The translations under genes and the position numbers were made by a program. The notes under the pieces were generated by a model, which saw only the letters and a program-made list of their open reading frames with translations, was not told the DNA's origin and made no database searches. This document shows, one piece after another, positions 3,628 through 64,000 of a DNA stretch of 64,000 bases (position 1 is its first letter; every line of letters starts with the position of its first letter). The DNA is from Branchinecta lynchi. Lineage: Eukaryota; Arthropoda; Branchiopoda; Anostraca; Branchinectidae. The stretch covers positions 15,728,518 through 15,792,517 of the forward strand of contig JAKZAP010000022.1 of the NCBI GenBank assembly GCA_023053575.1, given 5' to 3'.

Positions 3628-4022
3628 GCAGTCGCTCTACCATCTGCGCTACCGAGGGGCTTGTGAACAGAGTTCGCAAACCACTACAGTAGTCTGGTAG
3701 AAGCCCCTCGGTAGCTCAGATGATAGAGCGACTTCCTTGTAAGCAGAGGGTCCTGGGTTCAAATCCCGGCTGAGGAGCATTTTTGTCTATCAGTTCACTA
3801 CTTATAAAATGTTAAGGGCGTCTTCCCCATTAAAATTATATATTTGGTTTTATTTGGTTCTCACCGTGAGACCCCCTCTTATGGGTCCTGGTATGTCTAC
3901 GTGGCTCCGACAATGGAGTCCCAGACTTCTAAATTATGTTCGAAAAACTGTTTATGGTTTATTGGTCTCGGTACAAGTCCCTTGTGTAAAGTGCCATCTG
4001 TGTACACTTAAACTGACTTGAA
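3628..4022 (+). mobile_element. tRNA-Thr-containing repeat, rearranged copy
   Basis: An inverted A-box half (3629-3661, minus) and a full head (3703-3779, plus) face outward from GTTCGCAAACCACTACAGTA. A tail follows (CAGTTCACTACTTATAA ... CGGTACAAGTCCCTTGTG). Two other copies are at 25160-25405 and 35530-35782. Confidence 0.6.
3703..3779 (+). tRNA. tRNA-Thr(UGU)-like sequence, probably a repeat head or pseudogene
   Basis: A box TAGCTCAGATG, anticodon loop CTTGTAA, B box GGTTCAAATCC, acceptor ends GCCCCTC/GAGGAGC with one mismatch. The anticodon stem has two mismatches. It is part of a dispersed element, so it is more likely SINE-like than a functional gene. Confidence 0.55.
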
Positions 4023-8356: not shown

Positions 8357-8955
8357 GACACAAAATGGATATGCGGATTTGATTGGAAAATTTACTTCAG
8401 TACTTCAGGACCAAGAAACTCAGTTATGGAATGAGGCTATTCGGAAGTCGGAGACGCTCACTAATTATCCGAAGTTTAAGAATTTGTTTGGATTAGAATT
8501 TTACTTTTAAGCTAGGTCTACCCGCAGAAATATTAAAGATTTGATTTCAACTCCGGGCGAACTGTCTCCCATTACGAAGTAGGAAATAAGGTTTTTGAAA
8601 AGAATAGGTCTTTGCCAGTGGCCGAGTGTGCTTGCCGATTTTGTGGTGAGTTTATGCCATCTGCTGACAGATTGTCCGGGGGTGAAGGAAATTAGAGATA
8701 GTTTTTTTGGCGGGGTGCCCATACTATTTCCTGGTATTATGATGTCGACGAATCGTCAGGTAATTCGGTCGGTATGTAAATATTTTAAGTGTATACTGGA
8801 AGTTTAGATCGGAGGTAATTTGGCGAATACTAGAAGGGTAAAAAGAAGTGATCTTATTGTATGTAATTTTAAAGGTCAATTTTGTTAGTTAAATGCGATA
8901 ATGAATACTGTTGTATGGCCCTTTGTTGGCTTTAATAAATTGTTATTATTATTAT
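8357..8955 (+). pseudogene. Non-LTR retrotransposon C-terminal fragment with ATT-repeat tail
   Basis: Broken frames contain TQLWNEAIRKSETLTNYPKF, IGLCQWPSVLADF and HLLTDCPGVKEIRDSFF, typical of LINE C-termini. The 3' end is CTTTAATAAATTG followed by (TTA)n near 8940-8955. Confidence 0.65.
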
Positions 8956-8995
8956 ATTTCGGCCCTTCTTGGCAAGGGTCCTCGTCAGGCTGCAG
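8955..8995 (-). mobile_element. Fragment of the hammerhead family joined to a retrotransposon tail
   Basis: On the minus strand the core CTGACGA, helix II and GAAATATA are intact. The downstream helix I strand is lost at the junction with the ATT-type tail of the adjacent non-LTR fragment. Confidence 0.5.
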
Positions 8996-9394: not shown

Positions 9395-9582
9395 TCCTTG
9401 AGCCCAAGCTGACTTTGAAACATATATACAAATAGTGCATCAAACTGATATGTCAGCTATGATTCTTTGGCAGCAATGTTTCGGTCCTTCTTGACAAGGA
9501 TCCTCGTCAAGCTGTCAATCATATCGCCGAAATATCGCTGCCAAAGCATCGCAGCTGACATATCGGTTCTATGCATTACTTA
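9395..9582 (+). mobile_element. Foldback element of the hammerhead family with 15-bp target duplication
   Basis: Begins TCCTTGAGCCCAAGCTGAC. Flanked by AATAAACATAAATAT at 9380-9394 and 9583-9597. The left arm carries an antisense module with C-to-T damage in the core; the right arm is shortened, with a partial GAAATATCGCTG. It preserves the sequence TCAGCTATGATTC, which serves as the empty-site reference for the nested MITE at 1208. Confidence 0.68.
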
Positions 9583-12965: not shown

Positions 12966-14080
12966 CCTGTTTTTGGGATCGCAAAACGTCAGTTGAGGGA
13001 TACCTATGACTTCGTAAAAGTTGTCCGTCTGCCCGTCCGTCCGTCTGTCAGCACCATAACTCTCGAAGGAAATGGGATATTTTGATGAAACTTGGTGTGA
13101 GGATTCTTTGGGTCAAAGGACAGACCAAGTTTGTAGATGGGATCTGTAACCCTAAATTTAAGGGTTAAGGGTGGGGCGAAGTACCTGTCTGGGCTGTCGG
13201 TCAAAAAGATAAAGCTAAAAAAAGACTTCAGCATGTCTTCCTTACCCCTTCATCAAACCTCTAATCAACTTCATATAAAACTTTTACTTTTACAAATTTA
13301 GGGGCGAATTTTTTTTTTTGTTAAAGCTAATGAAATAGTCCATTTAGGGGTACAAGATATGCTGAATCTGACTATGACATTTATTTTCTCGCCGGACAAG
13401 AAGTTCACCCGGAATTCGGCTAAAACCGGAAGATGTGTTGAAGGTTGATTAGAGGTTTGATTTTGACTTAGCGGAAACAAGACATGCTGAATCCGAATTT
13501 GAAAGTAATTTTCTCGCGGGACAAGTAGTTCGCATGGAATCTGGCCAAAACCGGAAAATTTGAGAAAAGAAAAGGTCTACTGGACCATGATTAGATGTTC
13601 GATCTAAAGGAAAAAAAAACTACTGAATCCGTATATGACAATCATTTTTCTAGCCGGATGTAAACTTTGCTCGGAATCCAGCTGGAACCGGAAAATTTGT
13701 AAAAGTAAAAGTTTTATATGAAGTTGATTAGAGGTTTAATGAAAGGGTAACGAGACATGCTGAAGCCTTTTTTTTAGCTTTATCTTTTTGACAGACAGCC
13801 CAGACAGGTAGTTCGCCGGAATCGGGGCAAAACCGGGAATTTGGAAGAAGTAAGGTATTTCGTAGGCTCTGGGGGTAAACACACGTGCTGAATCCAAATC
13901 TGAAGTTGGTCTTGTCAGATGACTACCATTGGTCTTAATCTGTTTCTAAGTATTAATAGTTAAAAATGTTTAAGAAGTCTGGCGAAGACCGAATATCCAA
14001 AATACCCCATTGTCAGGGTGGATCAAATATTAAATTTTTGGGATCCCATCGAAACCTTTCGTCTTGTTGATCTCCCGTCC
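12966..14080 (+). mobile_element. Repeat A, near-complete copy
   Basis: Begins near TTTTTGGGATCGC. It then has CTATGACTTCGTAAAAGTTG, a (CCGT)n-like microsatellite at 13022-13050, AACTCTCGAAG, four tandem core units from about 13330 to 13870, and ends TTGGGATCCCATCGAAACC. It is the best copy for defining the family ends. Confidence 0.65.
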
Positions 14081-14467: not shown

Positions 14468-15100
14468 CATAGATTATTAGAACTTAACAAATTCCATTTT
14501 CACCAGTTTCCGACGTGTCCGGCCGAACTATCGACCTGAAAGGAAAACGAATCCGAAACACCAAACAGAACTATCAAAGTATCGCTTTTTGTACGTCATC
14601 TAATGGAGCTATTTCCATTCTTAATAAAAATTGTTTCTAAGTCTGGTTCAGACGTTAGCCTTAATTGTATTTAGCCCCACTCCCCTCCAATGAACAGCCT
14701 AAAATCATCAGGTCCATTCAATATCGGAAACACCCCCATTTTTCCACTAATGAAGAAACATGATGCCTAGGGCCTACACGCACAGCTTACCAATTAAGTA
14801 CGAATCTAACCTAAGAAGAGGTGAAAGCATCGTAACTATAAACATAAATAAGTCATCGGCGATATCAAGCGAGATTGTGGATACAGAAAAAATATGGAAC
14901 ACTTAATCCAAAAGTAGCAGGAGATATATTTCCTATTAGAGGCAATAACTTGTCTCGAACAGATATGCAATGCACATCTTCCATGTCCGACAGGAAGTTA
15001 TATAATGACAATTACTTTTATGGAGGCTGATACGATATCATATCATACTGGCTAATATTTATCCTTTGAGACCCTGCTGGGTTTCTCTAAGGTTAAAAAC

Positions 15101-16336
15101 GTGTCTCGGTTGTTTTCAGCCTCGTCAAGCACGCTTTTTTCTTCCAACTACAGCCTGAAGAAGACCCACGTCATGAACATCCGAAGTATTGCTGAAGGAT
15201 ATCCTAGCTCACTTATTCGTATTGAGTACATTTTGTATAGGTGCTTCCCAGTCAACATGTGCGTAAGTATGTTGCATGCCAGTAGATTGAGAAATAGTAG
15301 TAAACTAAAAATGGTTAAAGAAGTATTTTTGTCGAAAGTAGTGGCGATAATCCATTACGGAGCAGAGATATGGGGATATGCAGTAGCTGGGAAATTGGAT
15401 AAGTTGCAATTAAATTACTTTAAAAGGATTCTAGGTGTAAATAATAGAATTAATGGTCTAGTGGTAAAGGGTGATTTAGGTCTATTATCACTAAGGAGTA
15501 GGAGGCTAGTGAGTATGGTAAATTTTTGGGAAAGGATTTTGATTATGCCCCATTCAAGACTACTAAAGGAGGCATACCTAGAATCATTGTGTGATGGAAG
15601 GAAGCAGTCGTGGGCACACCAGATTAAGTGTATTTTAGATAATACAGGTTTAAGTAATTTGTGGAATGAAGGGGAAGGTCCAGGATGGGAGTTAGGAAGT
15701 GTGACTAGAGTGGTTAGACAGACACTCCAAGACCAGGAAATACAGACGTGGTTATGCGAGGTGAGTAAGTCAGAATCTCTGAGGTTGTACGCTGCGGCAA
15801 AAGAGACGTGGGGTGAGGAAATATATTTTAAAGTAGGGTTAAGTAGGGAGGAGTTGGGTTTGTTAATAAGTATGAGGGCTGATGGTTTGCCGCTCGGTGC
15901 AAGAAGAAAGTATATGGGGAAAAAAGACGAAAGATCTGGTCCTTACTACTTCTGTCCTATGTGTGGAGAAATGAACGAGGATATATACCACCTTTTCTGT
16001 GATTGTAGAGAGTTACGGGGGCTAAGGGAGGAGATTTTCGGGGTGGGGGGAACTGATAAGAAATGGATTATTAAAATGATGGGGAGTAAAGATTTTAAGG
16101 AAATAAGAATTATTGGGAAGTTCCTCAGGTTAGCTTTTAAACACCGGAAAGATTTCTTCTGATGGGGAAATTGTGTTTTTAGTGCTAAGAAAGTATTCAG
16201 TGTAAATTAAAAATATTAAGAGTGTGTTAGTGTGTATATGCGCATGTAAGATTGTTTAGTTTTTGTTTCGTTTTGTTGCATGATGGCCGGATGGCTTTAA
16301 TGTGCAAATAAATCATTCATTCATTCATTCATTCAT
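15101..16336 (+). mobile_element. Non-LTR retrotransposon, 5'-truncated, with 353-codon C-terminal ORF
   Basis: The ORF at 15101-16162 is the C-terminal part of a LINE reverse-transcriptase polyprotein. It shows the thumb-like motif HYGAEIWGYA, LDKLQLNYFKRILGV, and a terminal CCHC-type knuckle (CPMCGEMNEDIYHLFCDC). The fingers/palm with YxDD is absent, so the copy is dead on arrival. The 3' UTR ends in AATAAATC and a (ATTC)n tail at about 16306-16336. The frame is uninterrupted, so this is a fairly young copy. Related copies: 39286-39546 (3' end), 36470-36930 (minus, with stops) and 46930-47255. Confidence 0.88.
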
Positions 16337-17840: not shown

Positions 17841-17969
17841 TGTAGACCAGTCGGTAAACCATGAGTCCTTATGAAACGCCGCAAAGGCGACGAAAAATTT
17901 ATCTATTGCGGTCGCTTTGCCAAGTCCGATTTTGCCGAGTCCGTAACTCGTGAACCCTGACAGGTTTGA

Positions 17970-18695
17970 ATCCGGGTTACCAGAATTGTGCATCTACTCT
18001 CACTTGTGTGTCACTTTTGGACGGTTGGTCGGATCCGAAGGAGACTGGATAACTAACAAGAGGACATGTTTCTGACCTAACGATACACTTTCATAATTCC
18101 AATGGGCCCATGATCATTTCTTTGATAGTGCAAAACGGATACGTCAGCTGAATTTTACTAGAGCCATATTTCGGCCCATCTTGGCAAGGGTCATCTTCAG
18201 GCTCAAAGCCGCTCAAGTTGGAAAAACGAAATAAAGATTCTAGCTTAGCGTTAAATACTTGGACAAAATATTTAACACTCTGCGGCAATACTGCTATTTC
18301 ACGCTAAGCTAAAAAATAAAGATTCTAGCTTTGCGTAAAATAGCAGTATTGCCGCTTAGCGTTAATTTATATTTTCCAAATATTTAACGCTAAGCTAGAA
18401 TCTTTAGTTTGTTTTTCCATAATTTCATTTTTCCAAGTTGAGCGGCTTTGAGCCTGCAGAAGAGGACCCTTGCCAAGATTGGCCGAAATATAGCGCTAAT
18501 CAAATTCCACTGACATATCTGTTTTGCACTATCAAAGAAATTATCATAGGCCCTTGGGGAATATGAAAGTGTATCGTTAGGTCAGAAACATGTCCTCTTG
18601 TTAGCTATCAAGATTCCTTCGGATCCGACCAACCGTTCAAAAGTGACACACAAGTGAGAGATCACACACCATTCTGGTAATCCGGATTCCAATTC
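17970..18695. repeat. Large inverted repeat (about 330-bp arms)
   Basis: The left arm (ACCAGAATTGTGCATC, CACTTGTGTGTCACTTTTG, CTAACGATACACTTTCAT) is mirrored in the right arm (ATGAAAGTGTATCGTTAG, CAAAAGTGACACACAAGTG, ACCATTCTGGTAATCCGG). The hammerhead-family foldback forms its centre. Arm identity looks near 85-90% by eye. Confidence 0.75.
18115..18545 (+). mobile_element. Hammerhead-family foldback copy with extended inner palindromes
   Basis: Both arms carry the module. The minus-strand arm has CTGAAGA and GAAATATG, with G at the cleavage position. The plus-strand arm has an insertion in its core. Helix I strands GAGC/GCTC are kept in the minus arm. The centre holds nested inverted repeats around TTAGCGTTAAATA. 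It lies within a larger inverted repeat (17970-18695). Confidence 0.6.
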
Positions 18696-25159: not shown

Positions 25160-25405
25160 TTGTTATAAGTAGTGAACTGAAAGACAAAAATGCTCCTCAG
25201 CCGGGATTTGAACCCAGGACCCTCTGCTTACAAGGCGGGCGCTCTACCAACTGAGCTACCGAGGGGCATGTGTTCGCAAACCACTAAAATAGTCTGGTAG
25301 AAGCCGGCCATCCCGGCCGAAGGCAAATTCATCTAACCAGTTCACATCCCATGTTTATTGGTCACGGTACAAGTCCCTTGTGTAAAGTGCCAGATATGTA
25401 TTATT
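25160..25405 (-). mobile_element. tRNA-Thr-containing repeat, copy 2
   Basis: The tRNA-like head at 25191-25267 (minus) has canonical A box TAGCTCAGTTGG and B box GGTTCAAATCC. The anticodon stem has two mismatches. The other end is GGTCACGGTACAAGTCCCTT at about 25357-25380. It lies close to the donor of rabphilin exon 25412-25749. Confidence 0.6.
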
Positions 25406-27473: not shown

Positions 27474-27721
27474 GATGTTCCTTCAGCCCAAGCTGACTGC
27501 GAATCATATTTGACGGTGCAAAAGGGATAAGTCAGCTACATTTTATTCGAGCTATGTTTCGGCCCTTCTTGGCAAGGGTCCTCTTCAGGCCAAGCTTGGA
27601 AAAAAAAACTTGGAAAATAAAGTTTATTTTACACCTTGAGCCTGAAGAGGACCCGTGCCAAGAAGGGCCGAAATACAGCTCGAATAAAATGTAGCTGACT
27701 TATCCGTTTTGCACCGTCAAA
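27474..27721 (+). mobile_element. Hammerhead-bearing foldback element, full copy with 11-bp target duplication
   Basis: Same family as 30106-30359. It begins GATGTTCCTTCAGCCC and ends GCACCGTCAAA. It is flanked by CTTGGTTTATA at 27463-27473 and 27722-27732. The arms are antisense and sense CTGAAGA modules around a short AT-rich centre. A further family end lies just upstream at about 27376-27410. Confidence 0.72.
27545..27593 (-). ncRNA. Candidate hammerhead ribozyme, CTGAAGA subtype (minus-strand arm)
   Basis: On the minus strand: GGC, CTGAAGA (27588-27582), a 21-nt helix II hairpin, GAAA (27560-27557), CAT, predicted cleavage A (27553), then GCTCGAA. Core nucleotides are intact; helix I is weak here (C-G, G-C, G-U). 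The plus-strand partner arm (27638-27681) has a better helix I (GAGC/GCTC) but reads C where U16.1 is needed. Confidence 0.5.
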
Positions 27722-30090: not shown

Positions 30091-30105
30091 ATTAATTTAA
30101 ACTTT

Positions 30106-30359
30106 AAATATTCTCTGAGCCCAAGCTGACTTTGAAACATTTATTCAAACAATGTTTACAACGGATACGTCAGCTACGATTCTTCATCAGCGATATTTTG
30201 GCCCTTCTTGGCAAGGGTCCTCGTCAGATTACAGGTTTGTTTCCTTCCCCGAAGTTGAACCAGAGGATTGACAGCCTGACGAGGACCCTTGCCAAGAAGG
30301 GCCGAAATATCGCTGATGAAGAATCGTAGCTGACGTATCCGTTGTAAACATTGTTTGAA
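30106..30359 (+). mobile_element. Hammerhead-bearing foldback retroelement, full copy with 13-bp target duplication
   Basis: The element begins AAATATTCTCTGAGCCC and ends ACATTGTTTGAA. It is flanked by the direct repeat TAATTTAAACTTT (30093-30105 and 30360-30372). The body is a foldback: the left arm holds the antisense and the right arm the sense version of a CTGACGA ... GAAA module. There is no ORF and no poly(A) tail. Long, variable-length duplications point to target-primed reverse transcription rather than cut-and-paste. Penelope-like elements and retrozymes are the known retroelements that carry hammerheads. Confidence 0.75.
30270..30317 (+). ncRNA. Candidate minimal hammerhead ribozyme (intact core)
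   Basis: Order: helix I strand ACAGC; core box CTGACGA (30276-30282); helix II hairpin 30283-30303 (GG, bulged A, CCCTT, loop GCCAAG, AAGGG, CC); GAAA (30304-30307); TAT; C (30311) as the predicted cleavage nucleotide; then GCTG pairing back to CAGC. All catalytic-core positions (CUGANGA, GAA, A15.1, U16.1, H17) are present. Helix III would be only the self-complementary AUAU, so activity would need a dimer, as proposed for the short-helix-III hammerheads of Penelope-like elements. The cleavage prediction is inference. Confidence 0.65.
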
Positions 30360-30540
30360 TAATTTAAACTTTTCTTATCGTTATCCAATATATCGTTATC
30401 CAATGCTAGCGAGTGAATTGTACGAGCTATTAAGGAAATAAAAGATGTACATACAGAATAAACCAGCTATGGCTAAGTGGAAAAAGCACAGGGCGTGATC
30501 TAAACCTTTTCTTACTCTTCTTTTTCCTTTTTTTACTCTA

Positions 30541-30734: not shown

Positions 30735-31440
30735 CTTCCACGACTGAGGAAACAAGACCAAAGGTTTCGATGGGATCCCAAAAATCAAATATCTGATCCA
30801 GACAATTGCGAACGAACTATCTAATCAACTTCAAACTAAACTTTTGCTTTTAACAAATTTTACGGTTTTGGTCTGATTCCGGGCGAATAAGTTGTCCGGG
30901 TAGAAAATAATTTTCACATAAGTGTTCAACATGTCTTCTTACCCCTCAATCGAACATCTAATCAACTTCAAATAAAACTTTTACTTTTAACAAACTTTCC
31001 GGCTTTGGCCGGATTCCGGGCGAACTACTTGTCTGATGACAAAATGGTTTTCACCATCCTGTTCAGCTTGTCTTCTTACCCCATAACCGACTATCACATT
31101 ATGTGTTTACAAATAGTTCATTTGCCCCTTAATTTAAACCCCATCTATTCCAGCAATGTTTTCAACGGATACATCAGCTAAGATATAAATAAATGTTTCA
31201 AAGTCAGCTTGGGCTCAAAGAATATTTAAACCCCATCCCCACCCCTAAATGTAGGGCTACAGAGCCCGTCTACAAACTCGACCTTACTCTTGACCCAAAT
31301 AACCCTTCAACAAGTTTCATCAAAATATCTCATTCCCTTCGAGAGTTATAGTGCGCATAGACGGACAGACGGACGGACGGACAGACGGACAACTTTTTTG
31401 ATGTCATAGGTATCCCTGCACTTACGTTTTTGGATCCCAA
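30735..31440 (-). mobile_element. Repeat A, minus-strand copy
   Basis: Begins with GGTTTCGATGGGATCCC, has two to three core units (TTCCGGGCGAACTACTTGTC) and ends with GACGGACAGACGGACGGACG and GATGTCATAGGTATCCCT, the mirror of 12966. It is interrupted by a foldback fragment at 31143-31235. Confidence 0.62.
31143..31235 (-). mobile_element. End fragment of the hammerhead foldback family
   Basis: Contains CAACGGATACATCAGCT and ends GTCAGCTTGGGCTCAAAG, matching the reversed 5' end of the family. No ribozyme core. It is embedded in a Helentron-like repeat copy. Similar end fragments are seen near 37985-38040, 48470-48540, 49105-49200 and 59105-59160. Confidence 0.5.
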
Positions 31441-37603: not shown

Positions 37604-38225
37604 AAAATATTTTATGCTCAGACGTGAATCCTTGCCAAAAAATCCACCTATTTCTTATTCTCTAAGACATGGAAACCAAACAACTAATTAAACGAGCCCC
37701 TCAGCCGGAAATGGAAATTTGGAAGAAAACAGCGGTATTTCGGTTTTATCTGCACCTTTAATTCGCTGGACGGGAAATCCCCTAGGCAATAGGTTTCTGC
37801 AGAGGCCACGTGTACTAATTGGGAAGTTTCTATTTCCTATCCTAGCGGGAAGCGTAGTTGCTATTTTCTCGAGAAAGTGGTTAATAATCAAAAAGGAAAA
37901 CAATACGTGCGCCGACAAAGATATCCTAACATGAAAGGTTAGGCGAAGGAATAAAAAGTGTAACATTAACGGAGTAAAAGTGTAATGTTCCTTCAGCCTA
38001 AGCTGACGGTGAATCAGGTTGCCTGCGTTAAATGCGTAATGAGAGTTCATTTGCCCTCTTTTACCTCCCTTTTGTTTATGAAGTTCGCTGTGTGATTCTC
38101 TCTAAATCCTGAGACGCTACCCGCCGAAAGGTTGCCACGGCTATAGTTGCGTTTTTTATCGAAGTTTTGTTCGCCGTTAGCTTAGCTGGTTGCTTAATTT
38201 CCGTTTTCAAACGCCTTCGAAGTTG

Positions 38226-46179: not shown

Positions 46180-46442
46180 AACGACAGTGCAAAACGGGTC
46201 CGTCAACTGAAATTTATTTGAGCTATATTTCGGCCCTTCTTGGTAAGGGCACTCTCAGGCTCAAATCGCTCAAACTGGAAAATGAACTTGTGAAAAAACA
46301 CATTTTCATTTTTCAGTTTGAGCGGCTCCAGCCTGAAGAGGATCCTGCCATAAGGGCCAAAACATAGCTCTAATAAAATTAGCTGACACATTCGTTTTGC
46401 ACTGTAAAATATGATTCGCAGTCAGCTTGGGCTGAAGGAATA
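46180..46442 (-). mobile_element. Hammerhead-family foldback copy
   Basis: Ends with GGCTGAAGGAATATT, the reverse of the family start. The minus-strand module keeps a 7-bp helix I (TTTGAGC with GCTCAAA, around 46265-46217) but has lost one base in the CTGANGA box. The plus-strand module has AAAA in place of GAAA. Confidence 0.6.
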
Positions 46443-46454
46443 TTTTTTATTTTT

Positions 46455-58699: not shown

Positions 58700-59801
58700 A
58701 GTTGTAAAGGTGCAATAACTTTCCATTTGTTCCTGCGCTCGGTGGATTCTCGGAAAGCGCATCCAAGAGATCGCCAGAATTGACCTTTAGCCGGATTTGG
58801 TTTCAGGTTTTTGCCAAAAGAGCTCAATGGCATCTCTCCCAAGTGTTCTGACCTTTCTACTAATTTGACAATTTTTGGTAGACAGGGGTCTGGCTGAGCA
58901 GATGGCCATCTCACCTCGGAGTGCTAATCTTCTTTCTTCCCAGGCCTGGGCAGAAAGGACAACAAGTTTGGTTTGGGCGGCTGCAAAGTTCTATAGCGAA
59001 AGCAGTAAGAGAAGCAAAATATGTACCATTCTTACTGACTAGACAAAAGACCTCTCGAAAAAGAAACAACTCATGATCTTAGTGGTCTAATTTCTATTTT
59101 AGACGTAAGATGAAAAGAAGGGCCGAATTATCGATGATGAATATCTTAGCTGGCTTTCCGTTCTGAGTATTATTTTATATCACTACTAACAGCATTATTT
59201 TATGACTAGTATTATTTTATATTACTACTATCAGCTAGAGCTGAGGAGTGTTTATAGCCATAGAAACGTAGCCTAGAGAGACGATTTGTTGAGGAGGTCG
59301 AAAGTGATGCTGGTGCTGAACTATGCAGATTCATGTGTGCTACGACCACTTTGTCGCGTATTTCCGCAATGCTACAACATACCCTAGATGGCCTCGTGCT
59401 GAGGAGTAACAAACAGCGATAGTTTGGGTGCTCTAATTTAAGTTACTTCTCGTGTCGTCGTGGCTGCGCAAAGAGCCTGGTGTGAAATCTCTGCACAACC
59501 CATATTTTCGCTTCCTTCTGCCACCTTCCTTCCAACCCCAGCTTACGCGTCCTCAGAGAACGTGTGCGGGTGCATCTCCAAGCTGGACCCGTTTCCCGTC
59601 GTACTGAGCGGTATCATCTGTGTCCCCAAATCCGTTGATGCGTTTTTTTTTATTTATTTCTGGTTCATTTTTGTAACACATTTTAGTTTTAAGTTTGTGC
59701 AATGATATTTTCTGTCTCCATGCCATTTTTCCACAAGCCACGATTTAATGCCATTTGCTCCAAGCCACCCTTTAAACTCGGTAACATTTGTGCTCTTTCA
59801 G
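58700..59801 (+). other. EXOSC2: EXOSC2 intron 3, remainder
   Basis: A hammerhead-family remnant (GAAGGGCCGAATTATCGATG near 59115) and a short duplication (ATTATTTTAT at 59168 and 59210). Otherwise unassigned. Confidence 0.45.
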
Positions 59802-60188
59802 GGCATCCTCATCAAAATATCACCGTATCTCATCAAGACCAGCAAACTCAACTTCCATAACCTCCCCTGTGGCGCTAGTGTGATCATTGGGAATAACGGG
59901 TACATTTTCGTCGGGCCCACAGTGAACGAAGAAGAAAGCACTGGCGGATTCACACAGAATTTGGAACCCATCGCCCTTCCAGATAGGCAGGTCATAGTCC
60001 GCCTTAGGAACTGTATCCATTTGCTTTCTCAGAGTAGAACGCCCATTTTTGATACGAGTATTATGAAGTGCTACGATGCGAGTATTAACTTGGGATATGC
60101 GATTAAGGACATGTTGTTGCCGGAAGTGGTGAGGGAACTAGCTGCCATTGTGAGAGAGCAAGTTAGCGATGAAGTTATGGTGACGTAA
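59802..60188 (+). CDS. EXOSC2: EXOSC2 exon 4 (KH-like domain, C-terminus)
   Basis: Acceptor GCTCTTTCAG, 387 bp including the TAA stop. Encodes GILIKISPYLIKTSKLNF, then HNLPCGASVIIGNNGYIF, GGFTQNLEPIALPDRQVI and a C-terminal helix region ending DEVMVT. It is the largest exon and carries the KH-like RNA-binding fold. Confidence 0.97.
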   Translation, partial: GILIKISPYLIKTSKLNFHNLPCGASVIIGNNGYIFVGPTVNEEESTGGFTQNLEPIALPDRQVIVRLRNCIHLLSQSRTPIFDTSIMKCYDASINLGYAIKDMLLPEVVRELAAIVREQVSDEVMVT

Positions 60189-61909: not shown

Positions 61910-63714
61910 GAAATCAACTCGAAAAAATACTTAAAACAAATTTTAAAGCGGTAAAAAGCATCCCAACTAACATGGAAATCTTCGTTTCCTTCAACTGGAC
62001 AGGCTGCCATTCTTTCCTTCCATTAAAAGCAGTCTACCACAAACCGCTGATTTTGGGAAAGCCTATGCCAGACGCTGGGTACAATCCTTTAGTATACCCT
62101 ATGCCGCTATGCCTAACGCTTGATACTTGGAACCTAGTAAAATATTGATTATTTAAGTGAAGCTCAGCAATCAATCAATCAGAATTCATCTATAGTATGG
62201 TAGGTCAGGGGTGTAGGGTAGGTCAACAGCTATGCAGCGATTGGCATAGGGTATCCAGCGTTAGGCATAGGGTATGCCGAACGCTAGATGGCATAGGGTG
62301 TCTAAAAATCAAGGAGTTGTGGCTGACTGGCTAAAAGCTAATTAACCAGGACTGTGGAACAAAAGGAATAATAGGACTGTTACACTCGTAAGTCATAGTA
62401 AGTCTGTGGATCGGAACCGAGGCATTTTAATGTGCTAGGGTGAAGCGTCTATTCGGTCAACACCATTGCGAAAGAGTTCTAGAACCGAGGAAGGAAACCG
62501 ACCTCGACTCCGACCTAAATCGAGGTCGAATATTCTCTGATTCACAGTGTCTGACCCAGCAACGCCGCCGCTGATATCGAATCCAGTTCAGTTTCCGACC
62601 TAGTTTCCGGTTCTGAAGATCTGTCTCCGAGTTATACTTCAGATTTTCTGATGAGGAAACATGTTATGAAGAAAAAGATCGGTTTTCTTTAGACCAGAAA
62701 GAACTGAACAAGATAATTAACCGAAGGTTACCCGGAAATAGCCTAGGCTAAGTACCGAAACTGAACACATATTTCCGCGCGACGTGGATCTTACGTAAAA
62801 TTTTCTCGCTAGCGGTTAACAAGTCTCGTGGCTTCTCGGATCGGCTTTAACCCAGATTCCCACACTATAGATAAATAGATAGAGCAGTTACTTAGTATAT
62901 TTCAAAAGCGCGCAGGGGCCATATACAAAAAAAAATAAAAAAGTTATAAAATTCTAAATGTTTATCTACATACACGCCCACTCGAGTGATAAAGTTGATA
63001 TTACTCAGAATTTCGGGAAGCGACAAAATTACACCATTTAGATAAATATTTCTTAAATCAGAAAGCTTCGGCCGTCCACGGAGAAAATGGTCCTTCCTCC
63101 TCTCAGAGTTGGCAAGCATACCTCCCGTCAGGAACCCACTACCTCTCCCAAAAACCTTCTGCCTGCTCTGGATTGGAAGGCAGTTTGCCTTACAGTTGGT
63201 TACAGTGGTTTCACATGATCTGCCGGATTGCGCCGCATGGTTGTCGGATTTTACATCGTATAGACGAAATCCGGCAGAAGGAAAGAAAACATGGGAAATT
63301 ATCTTACGAAGAACGTAAAAACGCTTGTGGAAAAGTGCCACACGCTTACCGGCTTTAAAGTGGTGCCCACAGAAAGCGATTTTTTTTTCCACTTACTAAT
63401 CGAGACGCGACGCGAACAAAACGCGAATTTTGTGGCCTGACAAGCAGTTTTCCGCTTGCGATGCCAAATTCGCTCGCCGTGATTTCGACGGTCTAGATAC
63501 ATGGTGATGTTCCGAATTCCACCGCAATCTCTAACTTCTTCAGAAGTCTCTGCCGGTATACGTCGAGCAGAGAGGAATCCGGGGGGAGGGGGTGATTGTA
63601 TTGGAACTCAACTTCACAAAGAACGCAAATACGATTAGATTTGTTACCTGCGAAAACTCTACAAAGTGCAATAGGGGGCACAGTATAAGAAGAGAAAAGA
63701 CGCCGCACGCTTAC
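61910..63714. other. First visible rabphilin intron, distal part
   Basis: The palindromic cluster at 62055-62310, then unassigned sequence. The 166-codon minus frame 62892-63392 has no motif, and the 63715 donor points to an exon already found at 51366. Confidence 0.4.
62055..62310. repeat. Small palindromic repeat cluster
   Basis: CATAGGGTATCCAGCGTTAG, GGCATAGGGTATGCCG and inverted ATACCCTATGCCGCTATGCC recur. Contains an (ATCA)n-like stretch at 62167-62180. No gene seen. Confidence 0.5.
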
Positions 63715-63847
63715 CTTTTTACAGTCATGACATTTCAGCTGTGAAGTTGAAGAAAGAAGTCGAAATCTCTCCCCACAGAGGATACACTGATTCACGCCGT
63801 TTCCAAGCACTTGTCGGCGCATGTTCTCCACTCGTTCAACAAGTTTT
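63715..63847 (-). CDS. RPH3A: Rabphilin exon: Rab-binding helix and first half of zinc finger
   Basis: 133 bp. The acceptor TTTTGTAG is at the high-coordinate end and the donor GTAAGC follows the last codon. One base completes a codon from an upstream exon, then 44 codons follow, ending in phase 0. The peptide starts KLVERVENMRRQV, the C-terminal part of the Rab-binding helix. It continues with NGVNQCILCGERF and ends with CHDCKK, giving two of the four zinc-binding CxxC pairs. Rabphilin has the same order (ENMRK, GVNRCILCGEQ, CEDCKK). The peptide runs directly into the next exon's AVCSKCG. A start codon is not expected here. Confidence 0.9.
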
Positions 63848-64000
63848 CTACAAAAGAAGGAAATTTTAAAGGAGTTGTGAGAAGGCAGAAGGTGTGGGAG
63901 GAACCATTACCAGCCGATACGAATAATAATTGCGAACACAACTACATTTTCTTCGTGAAACCGGCCAGCACTGCTCACGGATAACACACAGCAGGGCCGT

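Follow-up and report, generated by a model that had tools for sequence, protein, structure and literature searches.

An inverted-repeat insertion of 254 nt, found at positions 30106 to 30359 of the 64,000-nt stretch of DNA analyzed here (the window), raises the question of what kind of mobile element could have left a foldback between two copies of a 13-bp direct repeat and why this foldback carries the letters of a hammerhead ribozyme. The insertion quite probably represents the non-coding remains of a Penelope-like element (PLE), and its right arm holds a minimal hammerhead motif of the PLE type; if such a hammerhead cuts at all, it would be expected to do so mainly in dimeric RNA. The insertion and its immediate surroundings consist of the following parts:

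30093-30105: left copy of the 13-bp direct repeat, TAATTTAAACTTT, probably a target duplication, of which the initial 3 letters may be part of the arm end
30106-30140, minus strand: 35-nt tail containing GTCAGCTTGGGCT, present on this arm only, recognized from tail matches in the window
30141-30227, minus strand: left arm, with its own hammerhead copy, the core of which runs from 30227 downwards
30228-30275: 48-nt centre between the arms, delimited by sequence reading and inverted-repeat comparison
30276-30362, plus strand: right arm, tailless, carrying the hammerhead
30360-30372: right copy of the 13-bp direct repeat, a probable target duplication

The two arms (30141-30227 and 30276-30362) are 87 nt long each and 99% complementary, with a single difference in 87 positions. 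When the arms are read from the centre outward, the hammerhead lies close to the inner end. In the left-arm copy of the hammerhead, G12 is changed to A and the helix I partner is missing. The original prediction placed the motif in a dispersed foldback element. This placement was confirmed: the motif lies within an inverted repeat, on its right arm, and an iterated profile search recognized 22 arm fragments in the window at E values of ≤1e-3.

The hammerhead motif

The hammerhead of the right arm extends into the centre of the foldback and has the following components:

30272-30315, plus strand: minimal type I hammerhead motif (sequence reading, descriptor search, and folding)
30272-30275, plus strand: 5' strand of helix I, CAGC, which is the last 4 bases of the 48-nt centre
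30276-30282, plus strand: core CTGACGA, C3 to A9 (sequence reading)
30283-30303, plus strand: helix II and its loop, GGACCCTTGCCAAGAAGGGCC, 21 nt with 7 pairs and one bulged A (sequence reading and folding)
30304-30306, plus strand: GAA, corresponding to G12, A13, and A14 (sequence reading)
30307-30310, plus strand: ATAT, A15.1 to U16.1, self-complementary (sequence reading)
30311, plus strand: C17, with cleavage predicted between 30311 and 30312
30312-30315, plus strand: 3' strand of helix I, GCTG, which forms a 4-bp helix I with CAGC

Direct reading of the plus strand bore out the claim that all conserved hammerhead letters are present in order, and the CTGACGA core, the 7-bp hairpin with one bulge, the ATAT, the C, and the CAGC/GCTG pairing are all present as described. 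The motif has the minimal type I arrangement of CUGANGA, GAA, A15.1-U16.1, and H17, combined with helices I (4 bp) and II (7 bp). In the hammerhead consensus, N7 can be any base and H17 any base but G.

A relaxed descriptor, which included the full core, a helix II of at least 5 bp (one bulge allowed), and a helix I of at least 3 bp, matched the 64,000-nt window at 30276 on the plus strand and at 27588 on the minus strand, versus a mean of 0.025 loci (the largest number being 1) in 200 dinucleotide shuffles. The two matches belong to the same repeat family and were treated as one event. With a stricter descriptor (a 2-nt gap in helix III and a helix II of at least 7 bp), matches were seen in none of the 200 shuffles. 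The Rfam hammerhead models, which had been proposed as a check, recognized no hammerhead family at E values of ≤10, so there is no canonical type I match; this is expected for a motif that has no real helix III. Rfam matches to miRNA precursors and snoRNAs on or near the arms were rejected, as they fell under the gathering scores and are typical of long hairpins. A search of a viral sequence collection with the 32-base motif returned 0 matches. The hammerhead motif is confirmed as genuine, and its self-cleavage remains a prediction.

The suggestion that helix III is nearly absent and that the motif resembles the dimer-acting hammerheads of PLEs is also supported. In the excerpts available of PMC6155905 and PMC7761336, PLE hammerheads are described as minimal forms in which helix III is missing, and thousands of motifs like them are said to be scattered through animal genomes; they may act as dimers, and their role is described as unknown. 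Similarly to the minimal PLE hammerheads (Cervera and de la Pena 2014; Lunse et al.; both as covered in the excerpt of PMC7761336), the motif in the window has the type I order, a missing or nearly missing helix III, a dispersed distribution in non-coding DNA, and a proposed dimer action, but it differs from them in its inverted, rather than tandem, setting, and its cleavage is a prediction. The type I hammerheads of newt and axolotl (excerpts of PMC6155905 and PMC7229834) share the weak helix III, and theirs cleave much better as dimers. However, they sit in tandem repeats of ∼330 to 350 bp and keep loop 1-loop 2 contacts, unlike the motif described here.

Predicted folding

Folded alone, the 44-nt module forms both helix I and helix II, with pair probabilities of at least 0.93 and a z score of -2.42 (4 of 200 shuffles were equally good). 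For the module with its flanks (63 nt), the z score was only -1.37, with 21 of 200 shuffles equally good. For the sister motif at 27588, it was -0.27, with 72 of 200 shuffles equally good, and the best fold was without the hammerhead helix I. For the complete foldback transcript, one long hairpin is predicted, in which neither hammerhead helix is present. The right-arm transcript forms helix I with a probability of 0.001, and its hammerhead fold is less stable than its best fold by 4.9 kcal/mol. As judged from these models, the ribozyme is probably buried in the present foldback, which would make this copy a by-product rather than a functional signal for processing. The copy at 30.2k is probably silent, because the hammerhead helices are absent in the predicted foldback RNA and disfavoured in the right-arm RNA, unless a dimer or a protein shifts the balance.

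Conservation of the module in the arm family

The hammerhead module could be aligned in 16 arms. All the required core letters are kept in 3 of these (30276, 27588, and 8988), two of which retain helix I as well; in the other 13 arms, one or more of these letters have been lost. The arm at 46258, which occupies a misplaced row in the 16-arm alignment, is without N7 in the profile alignment and thus does not count as intact in either of them. The minus-strand arm at 8909-8991, which holds the 8988 core, breaks off directly behind the ATAT, where it is interrupted by a (TTA)n sequence that resembles the 3' end of another retroelement.

Among the 42 columns of the module, conservation is lowest at H17 and N7 (0.40 and 0.50, respectively, in 22 rows; 0.44 and 0.62 in 16 rows), which are the positions that the hammerhead leaves free; 1 of the 16 arms has G at H17. 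The expectation that the core varies less freely than neighbouring bases held in part. The 11 required letters are better conserved than the ∼40 nt downstream (0.90 versus 0.72), with conservation falling past helix I, but in the 16 arms their conservation only equals that of the other positions in the 42-nt module (0.881 versus 0.881). Random sets of columns reached the core mean in 9.5% of the cases when drawn within the module and in 0.7% when the downstream stretch was added. In the structure named above, 83.5% of the cells are paired, versus 30 to 50% with slid partners, yet 109 of 500 column shuffles also reach 83.5%. Two-sided changes are seen in 4 of the 11 pairs, a number reached by 19 of 500 shuffles; structures with slid partners also have up to 4 such pairs. 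The covariation for the hammerhead helices is suggestive at most.

Tails, direct repeats, and spacing in two-armed copies

Seven two-armed copies were compared in the window; they are located at 30.2k, 27.6k, 9.5k, 46.3k, 31.2k, 18.2k, and 1.2-1.46k. This number does not include the arm pairs 23878-/24480+ and 48497-/49117+, whose head-to-head arms, ∼600 nt apart, may represent longer two-armed copies. The sister features referred to below are the following:

27474-27721: sister foldback with the tail at left and 11-bp direct repeats, holding the 27588 hammerhead
27550-27591, minus strand: sister hammerhead inside that foldback; its core letters are complete, and its helix I has 3 bp (one of them G-U)
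9395-9582: sister foldback with the tail at left and 15-bp direct repeats, which may include tail-end letters
31146-31223: 78-nt sister insertion of two head-to-head pieces, with the tail at right and 14-bp direct repeats; the hammerhead is not reached
46184-46444: sister foldback with the tail at right and with no direct repeat of at least 8 bp found

A single tail of ∼35 nt on one arm only is present in 5 of the 7 copies (those at 30.2k, 27.6k, 9.5k, 46.3k, and 31.2k). Both arms are tailless at 18.2k, and the copy at 1.2-1.46k has a left tail and has lost its right end. With up to 3 mismatches allowed, the tail core has 9 matches in the window, versus 0.01 expected, and 3 of these (27384, 37985, and 49180) are on single arms or alone. 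The tail-like sequence at 37985-38007 lies within a minus-strand open frame, with no recognizable arm.

Direct repeats flank 4 of the 7 copies, with lengths of 13 bp (30.2k), 11 bp (27.6k), 15 bp (9.5k), and 14 bp (31.2k), in which some letters may be element ends. A shared word of at least 11 letters was found in 0.4% of random pairs of 80-mers from the window (2,979 trials). No direct repeats of at least 8 bp were found at 46.3k, 18.2k, and 1.2-1.46k, and none were found around the single arm at 27.38k.

Throughout the family, the outer ends of the copies are near-fixed and the inner ends are variable. The distance from the predicted cut to the outer end is 44 and 48 nt in two tailless arms and 78, 79, 80 to 85, and 86 nt in four tailed arms; the value of 80 to 85 nt is for the 9.5k copy, in which the outer end falls within the direct repeat.

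The 18.2k foldback (17965-18692) is tailless and has arms of 234 nt (88%) that run well past the end of the family arm, so the flanking sequence is inverted too. At 1211-1365, the inverted ends CACTGTAAAAA and TTTTTACAGTGT interrupt a family arm and perhaps belong to a nested small inverted-repeat transposon.

Origin of the foldbacks

The anatomy of these copies is that of published PLEs. In the Pen families of Adineta vaga, the pLTRs can be inverted, head to head, with a 31-bp tail optionally present on one inverted pLTR and a 9-bp duplication (excerpt of PMC3846280). In PAc from Anolis, as far as the excerpt of PMC11167929 goes, the tail is the sequence between two reverse transcription (RT) start sites, and the hammerhead lies at the pLTR-ORF junction, cutting 26 nt into the ORF, with the RT start at 111 to 118 nt; mutations in this hammerhead left in vitro insertion unaffected. 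The copies in the window resemble those elements, as presented in the same two excerpts, in having head-to-head arms, a one-arm tail of ∼31 to 35 nt (5 of the 7 copies here), a short target duplication (direct repeats at 4 of the 7), and a hammerhead upstream of the tail. The spacing from the cut to the far start is 78 to 86 nt here versus 85 to 92 nt in PAc, the latter obtained by subtracting 26 from 111 to 118 (PMC11167929, excerpt). Unlike PLEs, the window copies are without visible coding sequence, the insertions of 78 to 254 nt being made up of arms and centre only, and AUAU or ACAU stands in for helix III. Hammerheads of the minimal kind were already known in PLEs, and the window family is probably a further example. 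Because the foldback itself has PLE anatomy, with its head-to-head arms, one-arm tail, and short direct repeats, the link to PLEs probably reflects descent, beyond mere likeness.

Several other types of element share some of these properties. A MITE- or FB-like DNA transposon, mobilized by a transposase that acts on the arms as terminal inverted repeats and with the hammerhead letters riding along in a conserved hairpin, would also be short, non-coding, and present in many copies, and 87-nt arms that are 99% complementary would suit it. However, DNA transposons are expected to have symmetric ends and a duplication of fixed length. In the family described here, the ∼35-nt tail makes the outer ends unequal in 5 of the 7 two-armed copies, the direct repeats vary from 11 to 15 bp, and the inner ends are variable while the outer ends are near-fixed, which makes a transposon improbable. 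A protein-coding relic, in which the module would overlap the start of a PLE ORF and H17 would vary as the third base of isoleucine codons (ATH), could draw on the ATH seen at H17 in frame 1 and on the report that PLE pLTRs include the first ORF codons (PMC3846280, in excerpt). Against such a relic, two of the variable letters occupy second codon positions in this frame: N7, which is A or C, and U16.1, which has been replaced in 5 of 16 arms. Conservation is not lowest at third positions (phase means of 0.909, 0.820, and 0.865), and of the 8 arms that were translated, 7 are interrupted by stop codons in each of the three frames within 120 nt. The codon-phase account of the variable letters is weak, and there is little to recommend a coding origin. 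An animal retrozyme, a small non-autonomous element that spreads as a circular RNA cut by its own hammerheads, is very improbable, even though the copies are short and non-coding and have the type I core. Retrozymes, according to the excerpt of PMC7229834, consist of tandem repeats of ∼170 to 400 nt with mostly canonical type I motifs, whereas the window copies are inverted or single, with no tandem units seen, and helix III is nearly absent from them.

Some observations speak against the proposed PLE origin or the ribozyme: direct repeats are not found at three of the two-armed copies, the 18.2k copy is tailless, most arms no longer have an intact core, the core does not stand out in conservation within the module, and the longer RNAs are predicted not to adopt the hammerhead fold. 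A further point is that no PLE coding copy was seen in the window; a non-coding copy would lack the PLE ORF. In the six frames of the window, no GIY-YIG pattern was detected and the [FY]xDD pattern had only two loose matches, in unconvincing frames; no RT or GIY-YIG domain was recognized in the 10 tested of the 57 ORFs of at least 100 aa. A LINE-like ORF at 15056-16162 has a weak zf-RVT match under the curated cut-off, and its 5' part overlaps a diverged family arm; a protein search with this ORF gave no match at E values of ≤0.001 among 5,868 candidates.

Assuming that the foldbacks descend from PLEs, a PLE enzyme supplied in trans probably cut both target strands, after which the same kind of RNA would be copied on each of them, once from the near start site and once from the far one. 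The two copies would run inward, stop at variable points, and join head to head within a short duplication. Truncation of the copies fits the 78-nt insertion at 31146-31223, in which the hammerhead is not reached, and the overlapping arms of the 9.5k foldback. By analogy with published PLEs, the motif would formerly have been active on tandem or paired PLE transcripts, with two RNAs pairing via the self-complementary AUAU to make helix III. A foldback could also arise by self-priming on an antisense template and not by priming on both target strands. Self-priming has been proposed for the inverted repeats of rotifer PLEs in PMC3846280, the excerpt of which leaves the head-to-head origin open, and palindromic centres, such as those at 27.6k and 46.3k, are in line with it. 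The single difference between the 87-nt arms at 30.2k is neutral between self-priming and two-strand priming. However, self-priming leaves the combination of one near-start arm and one far-start arm unexplained, and in vitro, both strands of the target are cut and extended by the PAc enzyme (PMC11167929, in excerpt). We consider self-priming rather unlikely.

More specifically, priming on both strands might take place in one step: to yield each foldback, a dimer of the PLE enzyme would nick the two target strands and prime on them simultaneously, one subunit being fixed at the near RNA start site and the other at the far one. This is a tentative reading, with less than an even chance of being right. 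If true, it would account for exactly one tail per two-armed copy, solve the origin of the head-to-head repeats of PLEs, and turn the hammerhead into a landmark that precedes the far start site by ∼80 nt. The tails found on one arm only are relevant to the origin of PLE inverted repeats and provide a countable prediction for PLE-rich genomes. Among the titles listed in literature searches, none was on the one-tail pattern, which does not prove its absence from the literature. With 22 arm fragments in 64 kb, the family is dense, and since the presumed RT starts, the ribozyme, and the target duplication are packed within ∼250 nt, each copy would be a compact record of a single insertion event.

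Other features of the window

The window also contains two tRNA-Thr-like sequences (3703-3807 and 25163-25267), which lie in a common stretch of 105 nt that is 94% similar between the two sites and inverted in orientation; these are candidates for SINE-like elements or duplicated tRNA genes. Two segments appear to be exons of host genes, one (59706-60188) with a KH_6 domain, which we take to be Rrp4-like, and the other (63493-63906) with an FYVE_2 zinc finger. Families of 40- to 86-nt repeats with a CCGGAC...CCGGAA core are found at 198-619 and 13371-13839.
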